In this document: positions 3,660 through 21,609 of the stretch, piece by piece
Position numbering within the stretch: position 1 is the stretch's first letter
Layout: each line of letters starts with the position of its first letter
Virus record (IMG/VR): IMGVR_UViG_3300027782_000407
Coordinates: 1-21,819 of that record
Source of the DNA: a virus
DNA length: 21,819 nt
Reading direction: 5' to 3' (one strand)
Notes under the pieces: generated by a model
Seen by the model: the letters and a program-made list of their open reading frames with translations, nothing else
What the model was told of the DNA's origin: nothing
The model's database searches: none
Translations under genes and position numbers: made by a program

Positions 3660-3690
3660 AACCTTTATTTTTTATTTGTTTCTAATACTT

Positions 3691-3720
3691 AAATATACGA
3701 AAAAAGACTTGAATAAACAA
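3691..3720 (-). promoter_or_regulatory. Bacteroidota-type promoter (TTG-N20-TATATTT)
   Basis: On the minus strand TTG (3718-3720) is followed after exactly 20 bases by TATATTT (3691-3697), with TTCG directly before the -7 box. It reads into the gene starting at 3659. The TTG lies in the 5' arm of the terminator stem at 3700-3727. Confidence 0.85.
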
Positions 3721-3727
3721 GCCTTTT
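3700..3727 (-). terminator. Intrinsic terminator of the operon ending with the gene at 3733
   Basis: The minus-strand RNA forms an 8-bp stem, AAGGCTTG with CAAGTCTT, with loop TTTATT, one G-U pair and a following run of T. It begins just after the stop at 3733. The same sequence recurs at 14108-14136. Confidence 0.85.
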
Positions 3728-3732
3728 ATCAA

Positions 3733-4254
3733 TTATTTTTTAAAAATTAATTCTCCTTCTCTCCTAGATTCAGCTTGATATCCTGGAATTGTTTTTAGTT
3801 GCTGAAGAATGTATGCTTTGTATAGATTAGATTTTTGAATCTTTCCTTCTTGTTTTTCTGTAGCTTCTATATAAAGTGCATTTGGATCTTCAGATGCTAT
3901 AAAATCTTTTACAATTGCAGTTACAGTTGATAGTATGGTTAATAAAGTTTTTATATCAGCTTTCTGTAACTGTGTTGTACTTCCTCCAACATCGTACCCT
4001 ACATTATAAGTTCTAGGAAGATCTTTTAAAAAACTAGGTAGGTAGTATTGTCTTTCAGCATCCAGTACACTTTCATTATGAAAATCTTCAAACTCTACAG
4101 TAATAGTCTCAGTATAATCTCCAATGTCTACTAAAGCTTTATATTTGTTTTTAAAAGCTCTTGTAAAAGAAAGTGGGGGAATATTTGCTTCCCCAACTTC
4201 TTTCATTAGAATTTCCTTTAAAAGAGGAATCATTAAAGTTGACATCTTACTCAT
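3733..4254 (-). CDS. Hypothetical phage protein, 173 aa
   Basis: A 173-residue protein without signal peptide or membrane segment. It has an N-terminal helix (STLMIPLLKEILMKEV), a middle part with YNVGYDVGGSTTQLQKAD and a C-terminal alpha/beta part (NALYIEATEKQ, YKAYILQQLKTIPGYQ). I recall similar uncharacterised proteins in large phages but cannot name a function. It is the last gene before the terminator at 3700-3727. A TATTTATTGTAAAA element just upstream may give it its own promoter. Confidence 0.85.
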   Translation of the reverse strand: MSKMSTLMIPLLKEILMKEVGEANIPPLSFTRAFKNKYKALVDIGDYTETITVEFEDFHNESVLDAERQYYLPSFLKDLPRTYNVGYDVGGSTTQLQKADIKTLLTILSTVTAIVKDFIASEDPNALYIEATEKQEGKIQKSNLYKAYILQQLKTIPGYQAESRREGELIFKK

Positions 4255-4272: not shown

Positions 4273-4389
4273 TTAGATAAACTCAATTGTATTTGTTTCT
4301 TTATCCCAATCAAACGTCATTGGCTTTTGAGTGTATTCGTATCTCTCATCCAATACTGATGCATTGAAGAAATGTGTACCACTATACAT
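4273..4389 (-). pseudogene. Remnant of the C-terminus of a metallophosphoesterase (38 aa)
   Basis: The frame from ATG at 4389 gives 38 residues. From GTHFFNASVLDERYEYTQKP onward it matches the last 37 residues of the phosphoesterase at 6009-6716 (GTLFINASVLDERYEYTQKP). About 22 of 35 positions are identical, and many codons differ silently. None of the metal-binding motifs is present, so this is the tail of a second, diverged copy whose front part is gone. A new ATG supplied by the junction would allow expression of a short peptide. The piece sits between the 75-aa gene and the 173-aa gene. Confidence 0.8.
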
Positions 4390-4636: not shown

Positions 4637-4903
4637 TTATTTTTTGTTTTTAAATAATTGCAAAGTTTCTTTTAATAAATCCATTTGCTCAATATTAGTA
4701 TTGCCAAATTTATACTGTTGAATAATTGTTTGAGTAAAGTTTAATACTTCTTCCTCACTATAACTTGTTTCTTGTTGATACTTAATACCAATCATAAAGG
4801 CATTGTATAAATCTTGCTTGTAGTGATAATCTCTAAAATTATCCAATTCATTTAAGTTTAATAATCTTTCAGCAACTTCTTCAAGTGTTTCTTTTACTTT
4901 CAT
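4637..4903 (-). CDS. Hypothetical protein with SYSEEEV-type C-terminal module, 88 aa
   Basis: An 88-residue helical protein. Its central segment, IGIKYQQETSYSEEEVLNF, and its end, LLKETLQLFKNKK, match the C-terminal module of the proteins at 10948-11247 and 11249-11980. I recall this module at the end of several uncharacterised Bacteroidota phage proteins. No catalytic motif. Confidence 0.8.
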   Translation of the reverse strand: MKVKETLEEVAERLLNLNELDNFRDYHYKQDLYNAFMIGIKYQQETSYSEEEVLNFTQTIIQQYKFGNTNIEQMDLLKETLQLFKNKK

Positions 4904-5045: not shown

Positions 5046-5072
5046 AATCTTATTTATTTTAAATTTATAATT

Positions 5073-5102
5073 AAATATACGAACTTATTTCCTAATATCC
5101 AA
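5073..5102 (-). promoter_or_regulatory. Bacteroidota-type promoter (TTG-N20-TATATTT)
   Basis: The minus strand has TTG at 5100-5102 and TATATTT at 5073-5079, preceded by TTCG, with 20 bases between them. It drives the operon starting with the 42-aa membrane protein. It lies between that operon and the oppositely oriented LAGLIDADG gene. Confidence 0.85.
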
Positions 5103-5148
5103 ACTTTTTTTAAAATTTTCCATATTTTTCATGAATAAAATACAAAAC

Positions 5149-5176: not shown

Positions 5177-6022
5177 ATGGCTTTTAAATTTTCAAATAAA
5201 GTAAACTCTGATTTGTTTACTAAAAACTTTACTCCTGAATCCTCATATATCCTAGGTCTTCTTTGGGCTGATGGGTATATTTCTAAAACTACTAATTCTA
5301 TTAGTTTGCAATGTTTACAAGATGATATAGATTACTTTCTTCCAATTTTTCTAAAAACAGGAGAATTTAATACTTACACTAAAAAACAATCTCTAAATAA
5401 TAAATTAAGTGGTACTATCAACTTTTCTTCAAAACCTATAGCAGACTTTCTTAAAGAGAATAACTATACAAGTAAATCATCAGATTCCCCTTGTAAAATT
5501 CTATCACATATTCCCAATAATTTACATAAATATTTCTTCTTAGGATGGAATGATGGAGATGGATGTTTCTACCACAATTCTAATTCTAACTTAATACAAT
5601 GTATTATTACAAGTTCTCATGAACAGGATTGGAAAGCTTTAGAAAATCTATGTAATACTCTAGATATTCAATTTACAGTACGTAAAACTGTTAGAGCCTC
5701 CTCAAAATACTCTCAATTCCAAATAAATCAAAATGAAAGTATTATTATGTTTGGAGAATATCTTTATTCAGATCCCTCTATAGGCCTGCCTAGAAAGAAG
5801 GAAAAGTATTTAGGTATTAAATCTTATGTAGATTCTAGATCTTCTCGTAGAATATTTTGTTATTCTAAAGACAATATTTTAGTAAATACTTTCCCCACAT
5901 TAATGGAAGCTTCTAATTGGATTGGAAAATCCCGTAACGTATCCTCAGATATTAATGATGTATGTGTAGGTAGACAAGCTACCGCTTTTGGTTATAAGTG
6001 GCAAAAATTTACATTAATATAA
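5177..6022 (+). CDS. LAGLIDADG homing endonuclease with C-terminal NUMOD1
   Basis: The only plus-strand gene supported here. Two LAGLIDADG helices are visible: LGLLWADGY at residues 26-34 and FLGWNDGDG at 121-129, each with the acidic residue that binds the catalytic metal. This makes a single-chain enzyme of 281 residues. Residues about 229-278 (CYSKDNILVNTFPTLMEASNWIG through AFGYKW) look like a NUMOD1 DNA-binding module. Such enzymes cut a long asymmetric site and are copied into the break. The gene ends with a 14-base tail-to-tail overlap with the metallophosphoesterase. A broken second copy of that phosphoesterase's C-terminus lies on its other side (4273-4389), suggesting recombination linked to homing. 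Upstream, 5103-5148 shows nothing else. Confidence 0.92.
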   Translation: MAFKFSNKVNSDLFTKNFTPESSYILGLLWADGYISKTTNSISLQCLQDDIDYFLPIFLKTGEFNTYTKKQSLNNKLSGTINFSSKPIADFLKENNYTSKSSDSPCKILSHIPNNLHKYFFLGWNDGDGCFYHNSNSNLIQCIITSSHEQDWKALENLCNTLDIQFTVRKTVRASSKYSQFQINQNESIIMFGEYLYSDPSIGLPRKKEKYLGIKSYVDSRSSRRIFCYSKDNILVNTFPTLMEASNWIGKSRNVSSDINDVCVGRQATAFGYKWQKFTLI

Positions 6023-6716
6023 TTTCATATTCACCTGTTGTAAAATCAAAATCTATTGTTATAGGTTTTTGGGTATACTCATATCTTTCATCTAGGACTG
6101 AAGCATTGATGAATAAAGTTCCATTTTTATATTCTATACCTCTACCACTATGGATATGGCCGCAAATATGAATCTTTGGTCTAAATCTTTCAATTCTTTC
6201 TGCTAGTAACTCGCATCCTAAATTATCCCAAGGGCGACCTGCTACTGTATCTAAAGTTCCAAATGCAGGACCATGAGTAATGAGAATGTCTGTGTTGTCA
6301 GGAATTGCTTCCCACTTACCTGCTAACTCAATTCCATTTTTAGGAAGATTGAATGCCCAAGAATAGAATTCCGGTTGCCAAGGTGAACCATAAATCTTTG
6401 TACTTGTATCAGTATCTAAATCATATAAATCATATCCTTCATCTTGGAGATAGTCAATATCCAAATATATGTTTAGTAGTTCCTCTACTCCTTCAGGATG
6501 ATTCTCAAACATACGATCATGATTACCTGCTATGAATATTTTTTTATCATATTGCTCAAGTGAATGAAACCAAGTACAGAAATCTAAGATATCATTTTTG
6601 TTATATCCTGAGTTCATTATGTCTCCGGCATGGATTAATAAATCCCCTCCAGGTAAATCTGTAAGGGGAATCAATCCATGTTTTGTATGTGTATCTGAGA
6701 TTACTGTTATTCTCAT
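6009..6716 (-). CDS. Calcineurin-like metallophosphoesterase
   Basis: A complete metallophosphoesterase of 235 residues. The dinuclear metal-site motifs are all present: SDTH (D8, H10), HAGD (D32), GNHD (65-67), ITHGP (H148) and GHIH (H187, H189). The substrate cannot be read from the sequence; phosphodiesters, including 2',3'-cyclic phosphates or nucleotides, are possible. Translation starts behind a strong GGAGGAG sequence that is itself the end of the 30-aa peptide gene upstream, with one base between stop and start, so coupling is likely. It closes the operon from the promoter at 7823-7852 and overlaps the LAGLIDADG gene at its 3' end. Confidence 0.93.
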   Translation of the reverse strand: MRITVISDTHTKHGLIPLTDLPGGDLLIHAGDIMNSGYNKNDILDFCTWFHSLEQYDKKIFIAGNHDRMFENHPEGVEELLNIYLDIDYLQDEGYDLYDLDTDTSTKIYGSPWQPEFYSWAFNLPKNGIELAGKWEAIPDNTDILITHGPAFGTLDTVAGRPWDNLGCELLAERIERFRPKIHICGHIHSGRGIEYKNGTLFINASVLDERYEYTQKPITIDFDFTTGEYEIILM

Positions 6717-6717
6717 T

Positions 6718-6810
6718 TTATTCTCCTCCTTTTTTTATTAAATAATACCACAACCAAATTAATTTGGATCTTATCAATTCATAAGCTGCTAGTAGTAAAA
6801 TGTATTTCAT
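6718..6810 (-). CDS. 30-aa membrane peptide, copy B
   Basis: A 30-residue frame: a hydrophobic span (YILLLAAYELI), then RSKLIWLWYYLIKKGGE. The peptide at 7488-7580 differs at only four residues. The two DNA copies also differ at silent positions, so the protein sequence has been kept. The last codons (GGA GGA GAA, stop) form the Shine-Dalgarno of the phosphoesterase gene that begins one base later. It starts one base after the stop of the upstream 224-aa gene. Likely a membrane peptide acting as a coupling leader or in its own right. Confidence 0.75.
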   Translation of the reverse strand: MKYILLLAAYELIRSKLIWLWYYLIKKGGE

Positions 6811-6811
6811 T

Positions 6812-7486
6812 TTATTTTAAATTTAATCTCTTTTTTACTAGTTCTCTTAATACTATACTCTTTGCTGCATTACTCAATGACATAGATGTTATCTGCCAAA
6901 ATTCTTTAATTGATAGTGCTGGCTTATTTTCAATAATATAATCCTCTGCTTCTTCTCTTGTTAGGAAGTATGTATTTAGATCTGAAAAAAATGTTACTGA
7001 AGGTGTTGGTACAAAGTAATCGAATTCAAAAGTCTTTTTATTCACCCACCATACTTTGTCTCCTGCAAAAATATCTTTTTTATCGTGTGTTATGAACAGT
7101 GGTTGTTTTGCTTTTGTAGCATATACTAACTTAGTATCACCATGCTTTTGTTCTAATTCAATTGATCCATCATATCTTATTTTAATTTTTTCAATAACTC
7201 TAGCGTCTGCATAAGACTGTCCAGTAATTAAATCACCTACTGTAAATACTTCTCCATCTGAGAGACGTTTTACTGAGAGTATTTCTTGTGGTACTACTCT
7301 TGATATTAGAATTTCATAATCTTTTTCAACTACTTCTTCCCAGAATTCAGGTTGATTCTCAATCATTTGAGAACCGTACATATTTCCTGTCTCTATGTTA
7401 TGATACATCCCACAATGTCTTTCAAATACTACAAATCCTAATTTAGGAGATGCTGGGTATTCTTTTATTAGTTTAAATTTTTTCAT
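6812..7486 (-). CDS. Hypothetical phage protein of KEYPxSPxLG type, 224 aa
   Basis: A 224-residue protein opening with FKLIKEYPASPKLGFVVF. I recall this opening from a family of uncharacterised proteins in large Bacteroidota phages. The middle is beta-rich with short repeats (DGEVFTVGDLI, DKKDIFAGDKVWW), resembling small beta-barrel modules. The C-terminus is helical (LTREEAEDYIIENKPALSIKEF). No catalytic residues are evident. It has a strong Shine-Dalgarno supplied by the 30-aa peptide gene before it. Confidence 0.85.
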   Translation of the reverse strand: MKKFKLIKEYPASPKLGFVVFERHCGMYHNIETGNMYGSQMIENQPEFWEEVVEKDYEILISRVVPQEILSVKRLSDGEVFTVGDLITGQSYADARVIEKIKIRYDGSIELEQKHGDTKLVYATKAKQPLFITHDKKDIFAGDKVWWVNKKTFEFDYFVPTPSVTFFSDLNTYFLTREEAEDYIIENKPALSIKEFWQITSMSLSNAAKSIVLRELVKKRLNLK

Positions 7487-7487
7487 T

Positions 7488-7580
7488 TTATTCTCCTCCT
7501 TTTTTAAGTAAGTAGTACCATAGCCAAATTACTTTGGACCTTATAAATTCATATGCTACTAATAGTAAAATGTATTTCAT
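7488..7580 (-). CDS. 30-aa membrane peptide, copy A
   Basis: A paralogue of the 6718-6810 peptide: a hydrophobic span (YILLLVAYEFI), then RSKVIWLWYYLLKKGGE. Its ATG overlaps the stop of the upstream membrane-protein gene (ATGA). Its GGA GGA GAA codons provide the Shine-Dalgarno for the gene starting at 7486, with one base between stop and start. Two copies with the same architecture argue strongly that it is translated. Confidence 0.75.
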   Translation of the reverse strand: MKYILLLVAYEFIRSKVIWLWYYLLKKGGE

Positions 7581-7798: not shown

Positions 7799-7822
7799 AA
7801 CTTTATCTTTTTATTTATACTT

Positions 7823-7852
7823 AAATATACGAAATTTATTTCGATAAAACAA
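7823..7852 (-). promoter_or_regulatory. Bacteroidota-type promoter (TTG-N20-TATATTT)
   Basis: TTG at 7850-7852 and TATATTT at 7823-7829 on the minus strand, spacing 20, TTCG before the -7 box. A weak CGAAA/TTTCG hairpin overlaps the spacer. The GIY-YIG HEN ends 8 bases upstream of the TTG. Confidence 0.85.
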
Positions 7853-7860
7853 CTTTATTT

Positions 7861-8547
7861 CTAAATTTCTTTATATTTCCAAATAAATCCTCCTGAGTGT
7901 TTATACCTTCCTTTCAGACATGCTGTTATATTTGCTGGATGTATTCCTAGAGTGTTCCCTGCTTCTTTTCCTGATGTCCATTCTTTTATAAATGTTCCAT
8001 CTTTTGCATGTTGAATTATAGGTTTTTTACTCTTCTCAGCTCTTGCTACTTCGTCTCTACTTGCTAATCTTTTTATATTTGAGGCTACATAGTCTATTTT
8101 AGAAGCTCTATTTTTTATGGTGGCTCTTCCTTCTGGTGTCTTATAGTAGGCTTTAATGTTAGTTATCATAGTAGCTCTAATTTCTTTTCCTTCAGGAGTT
8201 AATTCAAAAAGTTTACGACTTATTATTTGTTTGTTAGTAGATTCTATGGAATGTACTCCGGATTTATCTAGTGTGTGTGTTAGTCTACAATTTAATCCTC
8301 TCTCACTTAGTACGTTGTAACATTCTTGCCAGTGTCTCTCACGAATGTTTAATTGTTCAGCAGTACATTCTTCTATAATTTCAAAGAGATGTGTAGAGAA
8401 ACCGTATTTTACTAGTGAAGCATGCAATCTAGGCTGTCCTTTACACTTATGTACTTTAGAATACTCAAACTCTCTTCTTTCTAAATCAATACTCTGCCCA
8501 ATATAAACTCTTCCTTTTGGACTTGTAATCTTATAAATGCCTATCAT
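7861..8547 (-). CDS. GIY-YIG homing endonuclease with C-terminal NUMOD1-like domain
   Basis: A 228-residue enzyme. The N-terminal nuclease domain shows GIY (3-5), YIG (15-17), the Arg of the DLERRE helix and the ERHWQECY block with the conserved Glu. The middle is a basic linker containing two TPEGK/TPEGR segments. The C-terminus (KPIIQHAKDGTFIKEWTSG to GGFIWKY) matches the NUMOD1 DNA-binding pattern also seen at the end of the LAGLIDADG protein, so two unrelated nuclease folds here share a targeting module. It is the last gene of the operon from 10296-10325 and ends right before the next promoter, so it is probably free-standing. Confidence 0.92.
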   Translation of the reverse strand: MIGIYKITSPKGRVYIGQSIDLERREFEYSKVHKCKGQPRLHASLVKYGFSTHLFEIIEECTAEQLNIRERHWQECYNVLSERGLNCRLTHTLDKSGVHSIESTNKQIISRKLFELTPEGKEIRATMITNIKAYYKTPEGRATIKNRASKIDYVASNIKRLASRDEVARAEKSKKPIIQHAKDGTFIKEWTSGKEAGNTLGIHPANITACLKGRYKHSGGFIWKYKEI

Positions 8548-9842: not shown

Positions 9843-10277
9843 CTATACTGTATGTTTAATTCTTACTCTTACACAATTCTGAGGCAGTCTATGGATATGT
9901 CTGTAGTTGTTTATATACCCCATCATATTAGCACTACCAACTGCATTTGCAGAATGTATTACAACATCAACAACAGGAGCTCCATCCAGCCATTGATTAA
10001 CCAACCATTTTGTGCAATCCATTCCAGTTTTCTCCTGAATATTATCATAATTTAATTCGTAATTGTGATATACATTTGAATGCCATTCAGCCATTGCTGA
10101 AGGTCCTAAGTCATGATCTAGAGAGATTATTTCGATATTTTCTAGTCCAATCTCAATTACTTTACTTACAAACTCATCATAAGAACGAACAACAGTCCAT
10201 TCTGGTGTTCCTTCCACCCATTCATTGTTTGGTGATACAGGTGTTCTTACATCGTCTAAGTATATTCTTTTTTTCAT
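9843..10277 (-). CDS. cREC-type receiver protein (cyclic-phosphate processing)
   Basis: I choose the ATG at 10277 (MKKRIYLDDVRTP), giving 144 residues. A longer frame to 10325 starts with TTG and runs through the promoter. Motifs match the cyclic-phosphate-processing receiver domain (cREC): LDDVRTP with D8, D9 and R11; WTVVRSYDEF (27-36); SLDHDLG (52-58); CTKWLVNQW (88-96); and VIHSANAVG (106-114). In published comparative genomics this family is linked to RNA repair and removal of cyclic phosphate ends; the biochemical role here is inferred. A kinase, an RNA ligase and a tRNA cluster in the same window support an RNA-repair role. It is the first gene after the promoter at 10296-10325. Confidence 0.85.
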   Translation of the reverse strand: MKKRIYLDDVRTPVSPNNEWVEGTPEWTVVRSYDEFVSKVIEIGLENIEIISLDHDLGPSAMAEWHSNVYHNYELNYDNIQEKTGMDCTKWLVNQWLDGAPVVDVVIHSANAVGSANMMGYINNYRHIHRLPQNCVRVRIKHTV

Positions 10278-10295
10278 TGTTTCTATTTTATATCT

Positions 10296-10325
10296 AAATA
10301 TACGAAATTTATTTTGATCTACCAA
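10296..10325 (-). promoter_or_regulatory. Bacteroidota-type promoter (TTG-N20-TATATTT)
   Basis: TTG at 10323-10325 and TATATTT at 10296-10302 on the minus strand, spacing 20, TTCG before the -7 box. The TTG directly follows the TAG stop of the upstream gene, and no terminator is visible in between. Confidence 0.85.
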
Positions 10326-10947: not shown

Positions 10948-11247
10948 TTATTTGTTTTTAAATTGTAAAAAATGCTCTTTTGCATCTATTCTAAATAAAT
11001 TTGCATATTGTCTAAATAAATCATCTATAATTATTAACACTTCTTCCTCACTATATCCTTGTTGTTGCTTTTCCATTTCTAAAAGTTCTTCATCAATTCT
11101 TTTAATGATACTACTCAAAGTTAATCTCACGACTTCTTGACAAGCTTTTCTTATTTCTTGATTTTCAATTTCAATTAAGGCATCTTTTGCTGATGTTTGA
11201 GTTAAAATTAAATCTTCTCTCAAATCTTGCATTACTGTTTGTTTCAT
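10948..11247 (-). CDS. Hypothetical protein with C-terminal YSEEEV module, 99 aa
   Basis: I take the ATG at 11247 (MKQTVMQDLREDL), one base after the upstream stop; the longer frame to 11391 only shadows the neighbour. It is a helical protein with a possible coiled coil at about 38-64. The end (QQQGYSEEEVLIII to HFLQFKNK) matches the C-terminal module of the 88-aa protein at 4637 and the 243-aa protein next door. Function unknown. Confidence 0.8.
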   Translation of the reverse strand: MKQTVMQDLREDLILTQTSAKDALIEIENQEIRKACQEVVRLTLSSIIKRIDEELLEMEKQQQGYSEEEVLIIIDDLFRQYANLFRIDAKEHFLQFKNK

Positions 11248-11248
11248 C

Positions 11249-11980
11249 TTATTTCTTTTTAAATTGTTCAAACCATTCTTTAAATGATAATTTACATTCA
11301 ATTCCATCAGATACATTTGCTTTCCAACAAGCCATAAATGATTCTGCCATATCTTCCTCACTATAACTATTCTGTTGTTGCCATTTAGCACCGTCTATAA
11401 AAGCTTGGATTTTAGGGTATCCATTTGACTCTTTAGTATAGTTTTTGGAATTTTTACTAGCTTCTTCAAGTGTTTCTTGTGGTGGTTCATTATTAAGATT
11501 GTCTACTGCATTACCTATTCCATCATGGTCTGAAATATCAATAATTTCATCTTCTTCTAGTTTAGGTTCTTCTTTTGGAATAATGATTTTGTATTCAAAT
11601 CTCCATTCATCACGAAGTCTTGTTTTAAATTTAAAAATTTCAACTTCCTCACAACTTGGATTCTTAACAAACCATTCTAAGAACTCATCATCAATAGCTT
11701 GTACACCATCTAATGATTGGTCTGTTGTTAAAATGATTTTTTTGCAACTTGGTGCTTTATCTGCTAATTCAAACATTGCTCCATTAGAAACAACATTATT
11801 ATCTCTGTTTAACCAATAACTATCCCATTCAATTTCTTCATCAGAAGTGATGTATATGTTTTGAGTCACACCACTTGCTATTTTACCACTAAATTTAATT
11901 GCAGATAATCTAAATTTATTGTTGGTTTGTAATATTAACCTACTTGGTTTATCTGTTGATAATATGTGTATGTTTTTCAT
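11249..11980 (-). CDS. Phage protein of the MKNIHxLxTDKPSRL type, 243 aa
   Basis: A 243-residue soluble protein. The opening MKNIHILSTDKPSRL, the block QNIYITSDEEIEWDSYWL and the core IILTTDQSLDGVQAIDDEF with FLEWFVKNPSCEEVEIF belong to a family I recall as frequent, often multi-copy and uncharacterised in Bacteroidota phages. A low-complexity acidic linker (about 136-175) leads to a C-terminal module, GAKWQQQNSYSEEDMAESF to EWFEQFKKK, shared with the neighbour and with the 88-aa protein at 4637. The role is unknown; the architecture suggests an adaptor-like C-terminal tag. Confidence 0.85.
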   Translation of the reverse strand: MKNIHILSTDKPSRLILQTNNKFRLSAIKFSGKIASGVTQNIYITSDEEIEWDSYWLNRDNNVVSNGAMFELADKAPSCKKIILTTDQSLDGVQAIDDEFLEWFVKNPSCEEVEIFKFKTRLRDEWRFEYKIIIPKEEPKLEEDEIIDISDHDGIGNAVDNLNNEPPQETLEEASKNSKNYTKESNGYPKIQAFIDGAKWQQQNSYSEEDMAESFMACWKANVSDGIECKLSFKEWFEQFKKK

Positions 11981-12543: not shown

Positions 12544-12573
12544 AACCTTTAGTTTTTAATTATTAATATACCT

Positions 12574-12603
12574 AAATATACGAAGAATATTCTAAGTAAG
12601 CAA
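12574..12603 (-). promoter_or_regulatory. Bacteroidota-type promoter (TTG-N20-TATATTT)
   Basis: TTG at 12601-12603 and TATATTT at 12574-12580 on the minus strand, spacing 20, TTCG before the -7 box, 30 bases above the glucosaminidase start. Only a weak hairpin is seen between it and the upstream stop. Confidence 0.85.
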
Positions 12604-12607
12604 CTTT

Positions 12608-12988
12608 TTACTCACATTTTTTTAATATTAATCTATAATACTTTTCTTCTTTCCTATCTGAATAATAGTATAATTCTAAATTATCTAATGTTCCTAATAC
12701 AATTACCCTAAAGCTACATTCCTTATAATCTTCATCAACTAAAGTATATAAAAAAGTATCTAGTCTTAAAAATAACTGCTTTGACTTAACATACAAATGC
12801 TCAAATCTATTTTCAGTTATAATAGAAACTGTGTTACTATATTTATCTTCATAGAAAATTACATCACCTGGTGTGTGTACTTTTTCCCATCCGTCTGGTG
12901 TTCTATTTTCTCTATACTCAAAAGAGTATTTTCTTTCTTGGCTAAAGGTAAATTGTGTTAGTAAAAGTAATAGTATTAAATATTTCAT
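12608..12988 (-). CDS. Exported hypothetical protein, 126 aa
   Basis: A typical signal peptide (MKYLILLLLLTQFTFS) is probably cleaved near residue 16, leaving about 110 residues that are beta-rich and full of Tyr (RKYSFEYREN, LELYYYSDRKEEKYYRL). The two Cys in the mature part could pair. The start overlaps the preceding lipoprotein gene by four bases, so it is translated with two CAP lipoproteins as an envelope-directed operon. No family recognised. Confidence 0.8.
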   Translation of the reverse strand: MKYLILLLLLTQFTFSQERKYSFEYRENRTPDGWEKVHTPGDVIFYEDKYSNTVSIITENRFEHLYVKSKQLFLRLDTFLYTLVDEDYKECSFRVIVLGTLDNLELYYYSDRKEEKYYRLILKKCE

Positions 12989-13449
12989 CTTTTTATTATT
13001 AATACGGTATAGTATTTTTTGTTTGTATTAGGATCTTTTATTATTGATACTCCTATATCTGTGTAGTTTCTTTCAATTATGGTTTTTGAAGTAATATCAC
13101 TCATTATTGCATTCATTGCTGATTGAGTATTACTAAAGTTGTAAAGTATGATTTGACTTACATATTGTGTATTATATAATTCATCAATACTATTTACTGA
13201 TTCAATAAAATGGCAATTACATAGAGTCCCTGCTTCTATCATCTCTTGATTGTTTTTAGAACAAAGATAACCTAAGTGAGGTAGTATTTGTAATTGAGTT
13301 AAATTAATATCTACTCTATGTTGATTTATTATATCAATTAATTCTAATTCACTATCATTAAATAAATAGTCGTTTTCTATTTCTTGTGCGGAATCATTAC
13401 TGCATGAAATTAATACAATGCATAGTAATATGTAAGTTAATTTTTTCAT
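12985..13449 (-). CDS. CAP-domain-like lipoprotein, degenerate copy
   Basis: A lipoprotein of 154 residues: signal LTYILLCIVLIS with lipid-attachment Cys16. The body aligns with the neighbouring CAP-like protein (SELELIDIINQHR near residues 34-46 and a matching tail, DIGVSIIKDPNTNKKYYTVL). The positions equivalent to the CAP His and Glu residues are not kept: CSKNNQEM replaces the His segment, QIILYNF the GE segment and DITSKTIIER the SP-H segment. The fold may be kept without the ligand site. Four-base overlaps join it to both neighbours. Confidence 0.75.
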   Translation of the reverse strand: MKKLTYILLCIVLISCSNDSAQEIENDYLFNDSELELIDIINQHRVDINLTQLQILPHLGYLCSKNNQEMIEAGTLCNCHFIESVNSIDELYNTQYVSQIILYNFSNTQSAMNAIMSDITSKTIIERNYTDIGVSIIKDPNTNKKYYTVLIIKR

Positions 13450-13919
13450 TTGGCAATAAAAATAAATGTATAATACTTTTTCTTGTTACTAGGATTCGTT
13501 ACTATTGATACACCAAAATTAGTATACCCAGGTCTTGTTAATGTTGCAAAATGAATTGGACTATTAATCCAGGCCTGTAATACTGCTTGGTTAGTTTGGT
13601 AGTTGTACGCTAATATTTCTCCAACTCTAGTTGCTCTATATAATTGTTGTAAATTTATTTGCCTATCATAAAAATAATCATGTGTTATTGTATCTTCTTT
13701 AATCATGTATAGATTATGTTCTTCACATAAATGACCTATATGTTCAATAGGGGTTAATGTACTTAGTTGTAGACTTTCTCTATATTGATTTGTAATATCC
13801 ATTAAATCTAATTCTTGTTCGCTATAACTGTATTGATATTCTATAGGTATAGTGGTGGGGTACTGTTTATCGCATCCAAGCGGAAAAAGTAGCATTATTA
13901 AGAGTATTGTATAATTCAT
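13446..13919 (-). CDS. CAP (SCP/PR1)-domain lipoprotein
   Basis: A lipoprotein of 157 residues with signal YTILLIMLLFPLG and lipid-attachment Cys16. The CAP pattern is visible: ELDLMDITNQYRESLQL (34-50), HLCEEHNLYM with H66, THDYF with H78, VGEILAYNY with E99, AWINSPIHFATL with H121, and the closing YTNFGVSIV plus KKYYTFIF strands. CAP proteins are secreted and in other organisms bind lipids or act on partners; in a phage the role is unknown, with envelope modification or superinfection exclusion as possibilities. It is followed by a degenerate paralogue. Confidence 0.8.
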   Translation of the reverse strand: MNYTILLIMLLFPLGCDKQYPTTIPIEYQYSYSEQELDLMDITNQYRESLQLSTLTPIEHIGHLCEEHNLYMIKEDTITHDYFYDRQINLQQLYRATRVGEILAYNYQTNQAVLQAWINSPIHFATLTRPGYTNFGVSIVTNPSNKKKYYTFIFIAK

Positions 13920-14080: not shown

Positions 14081-14098
14081 AACTTTTATTTTATACTT

Positions 14099-14128
14099 AA
14101 ATATACGAAAAAAGACTTGAATAAACAA
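14099..14128 (-). promoter_or_regulatory. Bacteroidota-type promoter (TTG-N20-TATATTT)
   Basis: TTG at 14126-14128 and TATATTT at 14099-14105 on the minus strand, spacing 20, TTCG before the -7 box. The sequence from terminator to -7 is the same as at 3691-3727. The TTG lies in the terminator stem. Confidence 0.85.
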
Positions 14129-14136
14129 GCCTTTTT
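14108..14136 (-). terminator. Intrinsic terminator after the RNA ligase gene
   Basis: The minus-strand RNA forms AAGGCTTG paired with CAAGTCTT, loop TTTATT, followed by a T-run. It ends the operon that closes with the RNA ligase at 14151. Confidence 0.85.
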
Positions 14137-14150
14137 GTAATTATTTTTTG

Positions 14151-16018: not shown

Positions 16019-16040
16019 AACTTTTGTTTATTTAATACTC

Positions 16041-16070
16041 AAATATACGAACTATTCTTTGTATTTCCAA
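16041..16070 (-). promoter_or_regulatory. Bacteroidota-type promoter (TTG-N20-TATATTTG)
   Basis: TTG at 16068-16070 and TATATTTG at 16040-16047 on the minus strand, spacing 20. This copy matches the full TAnnTTTG consensus. A HEN gene ends 12 bases upstream of the TTG. Confidence 0.87.
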
Positions 16071-16082
16071 ATAAATTTACAT

Positions 16083-16856
16083 TTATTTTAGTAATCCTAA
16101 TTCTTTTAGGTAGGCTTTATTAACAAGTACTAGAGTATGTTCAGGGTATTGCTCGATAAATTGTTCCATCTTTACTTTTGAATGTGGATGTAAGTATCCT
16201 TTGACTTCGTAAAAGGTGCCATTACAGTAAAAATCTGGAGTGTATGTGTGCTTTTCTCCTAGTTTAAAGGTGTGTTTTTCATACTCCCAGTCAGATCCTA
16301 ATCTGTCTAAGTATTGAGCAAAAAGTACTTCCCAAGTAGATCGCATCTTTATCGTAGTAGTACCCTTTTCATATAAGGAGTATTTTGAATATATAGGAAC
16401 TTTCCCGTACATTCCGTTCTTATTTCCTGATACTTTTTCTCCTATTTTCTTTTTACTTTCCTCTGTATGATTCCAGCCTGATACTTTAGGTCTTGTTAGA
16501 TTATAAAGAGTAGTTGAAGGTTTTGGGACTCCTTTTTGAGCATCTGAGATTTTCTTTTTAGTTTCTTCGCTTTGTATGCGACCTACTCTGCTACTTCTTT
16601 GCTGCTCCCTGTATTCTTCATTCTCCCATAATTTTTTTTGGGTATTGGATGTCCTTAGTTTTACTTCATCACTAATAGTCTTACCCTTATGTGCTTTGCT
16701 TATTTTTGATTTTGTTTCATCACTTCTTTTCTTTTGAGGTTTTCCTTTTGATGCCTTGTTTCGACATCCAATAGAGCAGTATAATTTTCCTTGCCCATAA
16801 TACTGCTGCTTACAGCATTCGCAGATTCTGTGTTCTTTTCCCATAGTTTTCAACAT
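16083..16856 (-). CDS. Homing endonuclease: zinc finger, NUMOD3 repeats, PD-(D/E)XK nuclease
   Basis: A 257-residue protein in three parts. The N-terminus has a four-Cys zinc site (C12, C15, C27, C31). The middle is a set of basic NUMOD3-like repeats (SDETKSKISKAHKGK, SEETKKKISDAQKG, HTEESKKKIGEKVSGNKNG). The C-terminus (about 168-235) has TWEVLFAQYLDRLGSDWEYE, then TPDFY and YEVKGY, the PD and ExK parts of a PD-(D/E)XK active site (D208, E217, K219). This fits a free-standing homing endonuclease of the Vsr/PD-(D/E)XK-related kind. It is the last gene of the operon from 18518-18547 and ends right before the next promoter. Confidence 0.85.
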   Translation of the reverse strand: MLKTMGKEHRICECCKQQYYGQGKLYCSIGCRNKASKGKPQKKRSDETKSKISKAHKGKTISDEVKLRTSNTQKKLWENEEYREQQRSSRVGRIQSEETKKKISDAQKGVPKPSTTLYNLTRPKVSGWNHTEESKKKIGEKVSGNKNGMYGKVPIYSKYSLYEKGTTTIKMRSTWEVLFAQYLDRLGSDWEYEKHTFKLGEKHTYTPDFYCNGTFYEVKGYLHPHSKVKMEQFIEQYPEHTLVLVNKAYLKELGLLK

Positions 16857-18492: not shown

Positions 18493-18517
18493 AACCTTTA
18501 TCTTATTAATTATAACT

Positions 18518-18547
18518 AAATATACGAAAAAAAGCCTGCCGAAGCAA
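18518..18547 (-). promoter_or_regulatory. Bacteroidota-type promoter (TTG-N20-TATATTT)
   Basis: TTG at 18545-18547 and TATATTT at 18518-18524 on the minus strand, spacing 20, TTCG before the -7 box. The TTG is in the 5' arm of the terminator stem, and the T-run lies in the promoter spacer. Confidence 0.85.
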
Positions 18548-18555
18548 GCCTTTTG
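18527..18555 (-). terminator. Strong intrinsic terminator with UUCG tetraloop
   Basis: The minus-strand RNA forms AAGGCTTGC paired with GCAGGCTT around a C(UUCG)G tetraloop: 9 or more pairs with two G-U, extended by A-T pairs and followed by a T-run. It ends the operon containing the structured RNA and the 57-aa gene. Confidence 0.9.
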
Positions 18556-18581
18556 TTAATTATTTTTAAAATATTCTAAGT

Positions 18582-20999: not shown

Positions 21000-21027
21000 A
21001 ACTTTTATTAATTTTATTTCTATACTT

Positions 21028-21057
21028 TAATATACGAAGAAAGATCCAGATATCCAA
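21028..21057 (-). promoter_or_regulatory. Bacteroidota-type promoter (TTTG-N20-TATATTA)
   Basis: TTG at 21055-21057 and TATATTA at 21028-21034 on the minus strand, spacing 20, TTCG before the -7 box. It is the only one of the nine whose -7 box deviates at the last base. The TTG lies in the terminator stem. Confidence 0.8.
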
Positions 21058-21064
21058 ATCTTTC
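21039..21064 (-). terminator. Intrinsic terminator after the 77-aa gene
   Basis: The minus-strand RNA pairs GAAAGATTTGG with CTGGATCTTTC around ATAT (11 positions, three of them G-U). The T-run is weak (TTTCTTCG), so it may act mainly through its stem. Confidence 0.6.
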
Positions 21065-21078
21065 TCCGAATATTTTTC

Positions 21079-21522: not shown

Positions 21523-21531
21523 GTTTATTAG

Positions 21532-21609
21532 CTGATTAATAAGGAGTCGAACCTTAAACCCCTACCTCCTTTAGATTCAGAGGTGGTGTGCACCCTTACA
21601 CCATAATCA
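21532..21609 (-). tRNA. tRNA-like element, anticodon uncertain (UCU possible)
   Basis: The acceptor TGATTAT/TTAATCA (6 of 7) and the T-arm TAAGG-TTCGACT-CCTTA (5 of 5) are clear, and a GTGT/GCAC D-arm is present. The anticodon arm is odd: CCTCT and GGAGG enclose nine bases. With an extra G-A pair the loop becomes AATCTAA, giving UCU (Arg), but position 33 is then A instead of the near-universal U. The total of 78 nt is longer than a usual class I tRNA. Confidence 0.45.

Follow-up and report, generated by a model that had tools for sequence, protein, structure and literature searches.

Why would a phage carry, within one packed chain of genes, two nearly identical open reading frames (ORFs) of 30 codons whose last codons look like a Shine-Dalgarno (SD) sequence for the gene that follows? 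We analysed this locus in its window, the whole 21,819 bases of an IMG/VR virus record, which has ~30% GC and matches Flavobacterium phage immuto in scattered pieces at ~82% nucleotide identity. The chain lies on the minus strand and runs from 7798 to 6009 in the order 73-aa gene, copy 1, 224-aa gene, copy 2, phosphoesterase:

7808..7873, minus strand: copy of a repeated AT-rich element (TTCGTATATTTAAGTATAA on the minus strand), upstream of the chain, a candidate phage promoter
7577..7798, minus strand: 73-aa hydrophobic protein, whose TGA stop overlaps the ATG of copy 1 (ATGA)
7488..7580, minus strand: micro-protein copy 1, MKYILLLVAYEFIRSKVIWLWYYLLKKGGE, 30 codons + TAA, 93 nt
7484..7505, minus strand: AAAAAAGGAGGAGAATAAAATG, made up of the copy 1 KKGGE codons, the stop, one spacer base and the start of the 224-aa gene; predicted anti-SD pairing -11.8 kcal/mol
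6812..7486, minus strand: 224-aa protein of unknown function (phrog_11079), after copy 1
6718..6810, minus strand: micro-protein copy 2, MKYILLLAAYELIRSKLIWLWYYLIKKGGE, 30 codons + TAA, 93 nt
6714..6735, minus strand: AAAAAAGGAGGAGAATAAAATG, made up of the copy 2 KKGGE codons, the stop, one spacer base and the phosphoesterase start; predicted anti-SD pairing -11.8 kcal/mol
6009..6716, minus strand: calcineurin-like metallophosphoesterase, after copy 2

The 73-aa ORF, which the first-pass annotation of this DNA did not mention, extends the packed chain. The AT-rich element, with core AAATATACGAA, recurs between genes at 3676-3741, 5050-5119, 7808-7873, 10274-10307, 12559-12624, 14084-14149, 16026-16091, 18503-18568 and 21013-21078, and is a candidate promoter at these sites as well. 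A 38-aa ORF at 4273-4389 (minus strand) is a remnant of the phosphoesterase C-terminus (~67% amino-acid identity), and a LAGLIDADG ORF on the plus strand (5177-6022) lies between this remnant and the intact phosphoesterase gene. Elsewhere in the window, two adjacent lipoprotein-like ORFs (12985-13449 and 13446-13919, minus strand) resemble each other and look like a tandem duplication, and ARAGORN calls a tRNA-Phe with the unusual anticodon AAA (21531-21609, minus strand), and this could reflect either a misfold or a tRNA that is divergent.

All junctions in the chain are either ATGA overlaps or TAA-A-ATG, and the stop of each twin lies one base before the next ATG. We found that the 22-mer AAAAAAGGAGGAGAATAAAATG, which ends in the next start, occurs at exactly two sites in the window; its expectation in shuffled sequence is 0.00 with 3 mismatches allowed. 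When we inspected 42 window starts for AGGA, GGAG or GAGG within 18 nt, only three had such a motif, and the strongest two (-11.8 kcal/mol) are those that follow the twins. The twins' own starts have no SD-like motif of this kind. The first-pass annotation had described two frames of 30 codons that are four residues apart with silent changes, that both end in KKGGE one base before the next gene, and that lie in a window where most genes lack an SD; this description is accurate.

The two copies differ at residues 8, 12, 17 and 25, with 4 nonsynonymous and 8 synonymous base changes (dN 0.058, dS 0.68), and are 88% identical across a 107-nt repeat. Contig L029, which is near-identical to the window, carries the same pair. 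We considered a recent local duplication and dropped it, because copy 2 is closer to the single copy of another locus, L063, than to copy 1 (93% as compared to 85% identity over 81 nt). In L063, this single copy precedes the 224-aa gene. Judged from these comparisons, recombination between neighbouring slots is the more likely origin of the twins, and the same AATAAAATGA string, which bounds both copies, could have aided such recombination. Further copies, which the first-pass annotation had proposed to look for, are present at no fewer than 160 loci across contigs; however, a single copy is found in 28 of 30 records, so that duplication is not the normal state. Two diverged copies ~4.7 kb apart are found in one other record (G003, which holds loci L187 and L206).

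The first homologues were seen beside relatives of the phosphoesterase. We scanned viral contigs with two patterns taken from non-overlapping halves of the peptide; each pattern returned at least 120 stretches, and in the loci matched the two mostly coincide, among the matches listed. An earlier scan with an SD-like pattern had returned mostly unrelated loci. In a profile search of the fetched loci, 222 hits have E<1e-7 and are well apart from chance hits at E>0.002. The family comprises 160 distinct contexts and at least 132 distinct peptides of ~30 aa, among the matches listed, with the consensus MKYILxLxAYEFIR[PS]KxIWLWYYLIKKGxE. Since each half had served as a selection pattern, we scored conservation on the opposite half. 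Among the matches listed, Y10 (114/115), E11 (115/115) and R14 (115/115) are essentially invariant in loci found from the C half, and K16 (113/119), W19 (109/119) and L24 (117/119) are conserved in loci found from the N half. Median dN/dS is 0.14 among the matches listed, pN is lower than pS in 99.6% of sampled pairs, and variation is concentrated at third codon positions. An open frame of ~30 codons is thus under purifying selection across independent phages, and the earlier claim that these are real micro-proteins stands. A chance ORF or a non-coding RNA element, for which only the short length speaks, is refuted by these codon-level data and by the invariant residues, and we give it practically no weight. 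The first-pass annotation had reasoned that its reading would fall if relatives kept the motif region and lost the frame; the opposite was found, as the frame is kept and the motif varies.

We found no credible profile match for 80 members scanned against PHROGs, Pfam, NCBIfam and PDB, and tblastn of the peptide gave no match in 50,697 phage records or in a plasmid set. Default tblastn settings recover family members in a local control, so the absence from the phage and plasmid sets is not a filter artefact. In bacterial genome contigs there were 12 pattern hits, one of which is a real member (L362, on a contig of a Bacteroidetes MAG). In the collections searched here, members are therefore seen only in uncultured viral contigs and on this one MAG contig. 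The terminase adjoining one member is nearest to those of Flavobacterium phages (54%), which suggests hosts among the Flavobacteriales. The family is unnamed and looks new, and is common in uncultured phages that probably infect Flavobacterium-like bacteria; it adds a 30-residue gene family to what is known of environmental Bacteroidota phages.

To describe what the micro-gene does in its operons, we measured its distance to the neighbouring genes. Among the matches listed, the next start lies -4 to +2 nt from the micro-ORF stop in 124 of 160 loci, which is the arrangement of a termination-reinitiation pair, and an upstream stop is equally close to the micro-ORF start in 108 of 149. The next genes fall into 54 clusters among the matches listed and include small modular phage proteins, helicases, the phosphoesterase and terminase genes. 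Many genes adjoining micro-ORFs belong to a small modular family with a YSEEE... segment (cluster 0; 189 proteins at 107 loci), and this segment is also shared by window proteins at 4637-4903, 10948-11391 and 11249-11980. Most members are mid-operon; in three (L337, L256 and L329), which end their operons, a hairpin followed by T's, resembling an intrinsic terminator, lies directly after the stop. When we searched 15 phosphoesterase-bearing phage records whole, one had a member, at another place, indicating that the gene is patchy and changes position. The first-pass annotation had called the twins "duplicated as translation-coupling leaders". A leader is the first ORF of a transcript, ahead of the gene that it serves; this reading is not supported, because 108 of 149 members are tightly coupled to an upstream gene and some have no following gene to lead.

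A ribosome-stalling peptide that controls the next gene by arrest or attenuation would also be a short conserved ORF directly ahead of other genes. Arrest peptides conserve the residues that adjoin the stop, whereas these residues are variable in this family, which makes such a role unlikely. Moreover, overlapping junctions leave no room for a terminator before the next gene, and the next genes have no common theme. We regard arrest or attenuation as very improbable.

AlphaFold2, run with 80 family members, predicts one continuous helix over residues 2-29 (pLDDT 90), and octanol-scale energies summed over residues 3-25 are strongly favourable (-11 to -13). The predicted peptide is thus one helix of membrane-compatible hydrophobicity, and is most simply read as a lone membrane helix whose core, YE..R.K, is conserved. 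The earlier suggestion that the peptide is probably membrane-inserted agrees with this predicted 28-residue helix and its energy. Buried E11, R14 and K16 would be unusual in a transmembrane helix, so a helix lying on the membrane surface is possible instead. A holin-like role in lysis was considered since some members precede terminase genes, and is not favoured because other members lie among replication genes.

To find out how general the SD-like motif is, we compared junctions within and outside the family. Among the matches listed, AGGA, GGAG or GAGG is present at ~66% of coupled junctions after the micro-ORF. In same-contig controls, the frequency of the motif is 2.5% at other starts (n = 1154) and 5.5% at other coupled starts (n = 566), and predicted pairing to the 16S tail has a median of -5.8 kcal/mol after micro-ORFs as compared to +0.4 kcal/mol in controls. 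At the starts of the micro-ORFs themselves, among the matches listed, pairing is always weaker than -6 kcal/mol. Where a micro-ORF is present, the phosphoesterase start has a strong motif (6 of 6 loci); where it is absent, 2 of 46 loci have a motif. The claim that the bases coding for the end of the frame also supply the next gene with an SD-like motif is therefore right, and holds generally.

These same numbers favour a reading in which the ORF serves mainly to supply the next gene with ribosomes that are terminating and with a strong SD, and the peptide is incidental. In contrast to what this would predict, amino-acid constraint on the peptide body is strong and it is the tail that varies, among the matches listed. 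A terminator follows three of the members, the motif is missing from about a third of those that are coupled (for example, those with KQANK and KKNTE tails), and relatives of the next gene manage without the micro-ORF motif. SD sequences are also present in only about 10% of Bacteroidetes overlapping pairs (PMC6728339). We consider it unlikely that coupling is the main purpose of the gene.

The probable hosts add a further difficulty. Bacteroidia ribosomes are reported to fail to recognise SD sequences because bS21, bS18 and bS6 sequester the anti-SD (PMC9976891), and in Bacteroidetes the SD is reported to be used neither in initiation nor in reinitiation (PMC6728339); both reports, as well as the frequent absence of the motif, speak against the leader claim. 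F. johnsoniae ribosomes that lack bS21 do read SD sequences (PMC9976891), and such specialised ribosomes could switch on the next genes, with the micro-gene as a portable SD carrier. The window motifs reach -11.8 kcal/mol, which fits this; however, the rpsU motifs described in the literature pair more strongly still (below -13 kcal/mol), most family motifs are near -6 kcal/mol, and a search of 20 phage records for a bS21 gene found none. The codons of the tail do not fit it either. GGA makes up 112 of 122 glycine codons (42% expected), and AAA makes up 251 of 254 lysine codons and GAA 84 of 87 glutamate codons, although AAG and GAG would pair equally well. The preference for AAA over AAG and for GAA over GAG is as biased as that for GGA, suggesting that A is preferred near starts, rather than bases that pair with the anti-SD; an A at -3 is a known positive determinant in F. 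johnsoniae (PMC6847099). The silent-site bias that the first-pass annotation proposed to look for is therefore real, but it is directed toward A and not specifically toward an SD, and we dropped it as proof of selection on the SD. The motif is somewhat commoner in coupled members (83/127, 65%) than in uncoupled members (10/26, 38%), with p 0.015 before any correction for relatedness, so the motif may be under selection. We judge a mere SD carrier for specialised ribosomes decidedly improbable. A mobile micro-gene with a dual role, as a membrane-acting peptide and as a portable SD for a bS21-deficient minority of Bacteroidota ribosomes during infection, is quite unlikely in our estimate. A functional SD in the tail of a micro-gene is at present an unproven, testable oddity of the sequence. 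It offers a natural test of what an SD means for phage translation where host ribosomes hide the anti-SD, because the phosphoesterase gene is found behind the motif-bearing micro-gene in some loci and without it in others.

Taken together, these data make it likely that the micro-gene is a gene in its own right and encodes an accessory protein of ~30 aa with a single, probably membrane-inserted helix, carried in packed operons of Flavobacteriales-type phages and coupled to its neighbours. At the sequence level, this reading is built on strong purifying selection on the peptide, the invariant YE..R core, two-sided overlap, patchy presence and changing neighbours. A chain of 30 residues is too short to clear the ribosome exit tunnel during synthesis, so the peptide would insert into the host inner membrane after its release. 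There it may bind a host or phage membrane protein, as other membrane micro-proteins do. Termination-reinitiation at ATGA, TAATG or TAAAATG would link translation of the micro-gene and the next gene, and the KKGxE tail, which is polar and encoded by A-rich codons, would present an SD-like AAGGA or GGAG just before the next start. This tail may help the terminating ribosome to reinitiate, which is probably not the reason that the gene exists. In the window phage, recombination between neighbouring slots would have left two copies. The first-pass annotation was thus correct in its observation, its protein and its dual-use junction are supported, and its account of leaders and duplication is unsupported.

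Single-helix membrane micro-proteins are known from phages and bacteria, such as KdpF, CydX, TisB and lambda CIII. Like these, the micro-protein falls in the range of about 30-50 residues with one hydrophobic or amphipathic helix; it differs in its residue pattern, with the YE..R.K core, and has no detectable sequence relationship to any profile. The autoregulation of rpsU by an SD and bS21-deficient ribosomes (McNutt et al., 2023; PMC9976891) resembles the micro-gene junction in its strong SD and in the kind of host, as far as the host of the micro-gene can be inferred; however, rpsU is one host gene, and its SD pairs more strongly (below -13 kcal/mol). Korolev et al. (2016; PMC4833913) proposed leader genes that increase translation via reinitiation, and these are likewise short ORFs just ahead of a structural gene. 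Such leader genes are considered to yield no stable product and are placed in the 5' leader, about 10-14 nt away, whereas the micro-gene is a conserved ORF that overlaps the adjoining genes and mostly sits inside an operon. Huber et al. (2019; PMC6728339) described overlapping gene pairs that are coupled by termination-reinitiation; these share with the micro-gene the ATGA, TAATG or short-gap junctions and a motif located within the upstream gene, at its 3' end. In Bacteroidetes, about 10% of such pairs have an SD as compared to ~66% of micro-gene junctions and, unlike in those pairs, the upstream partner here is a conserved 30-codon family that stands before many unrelated genes.
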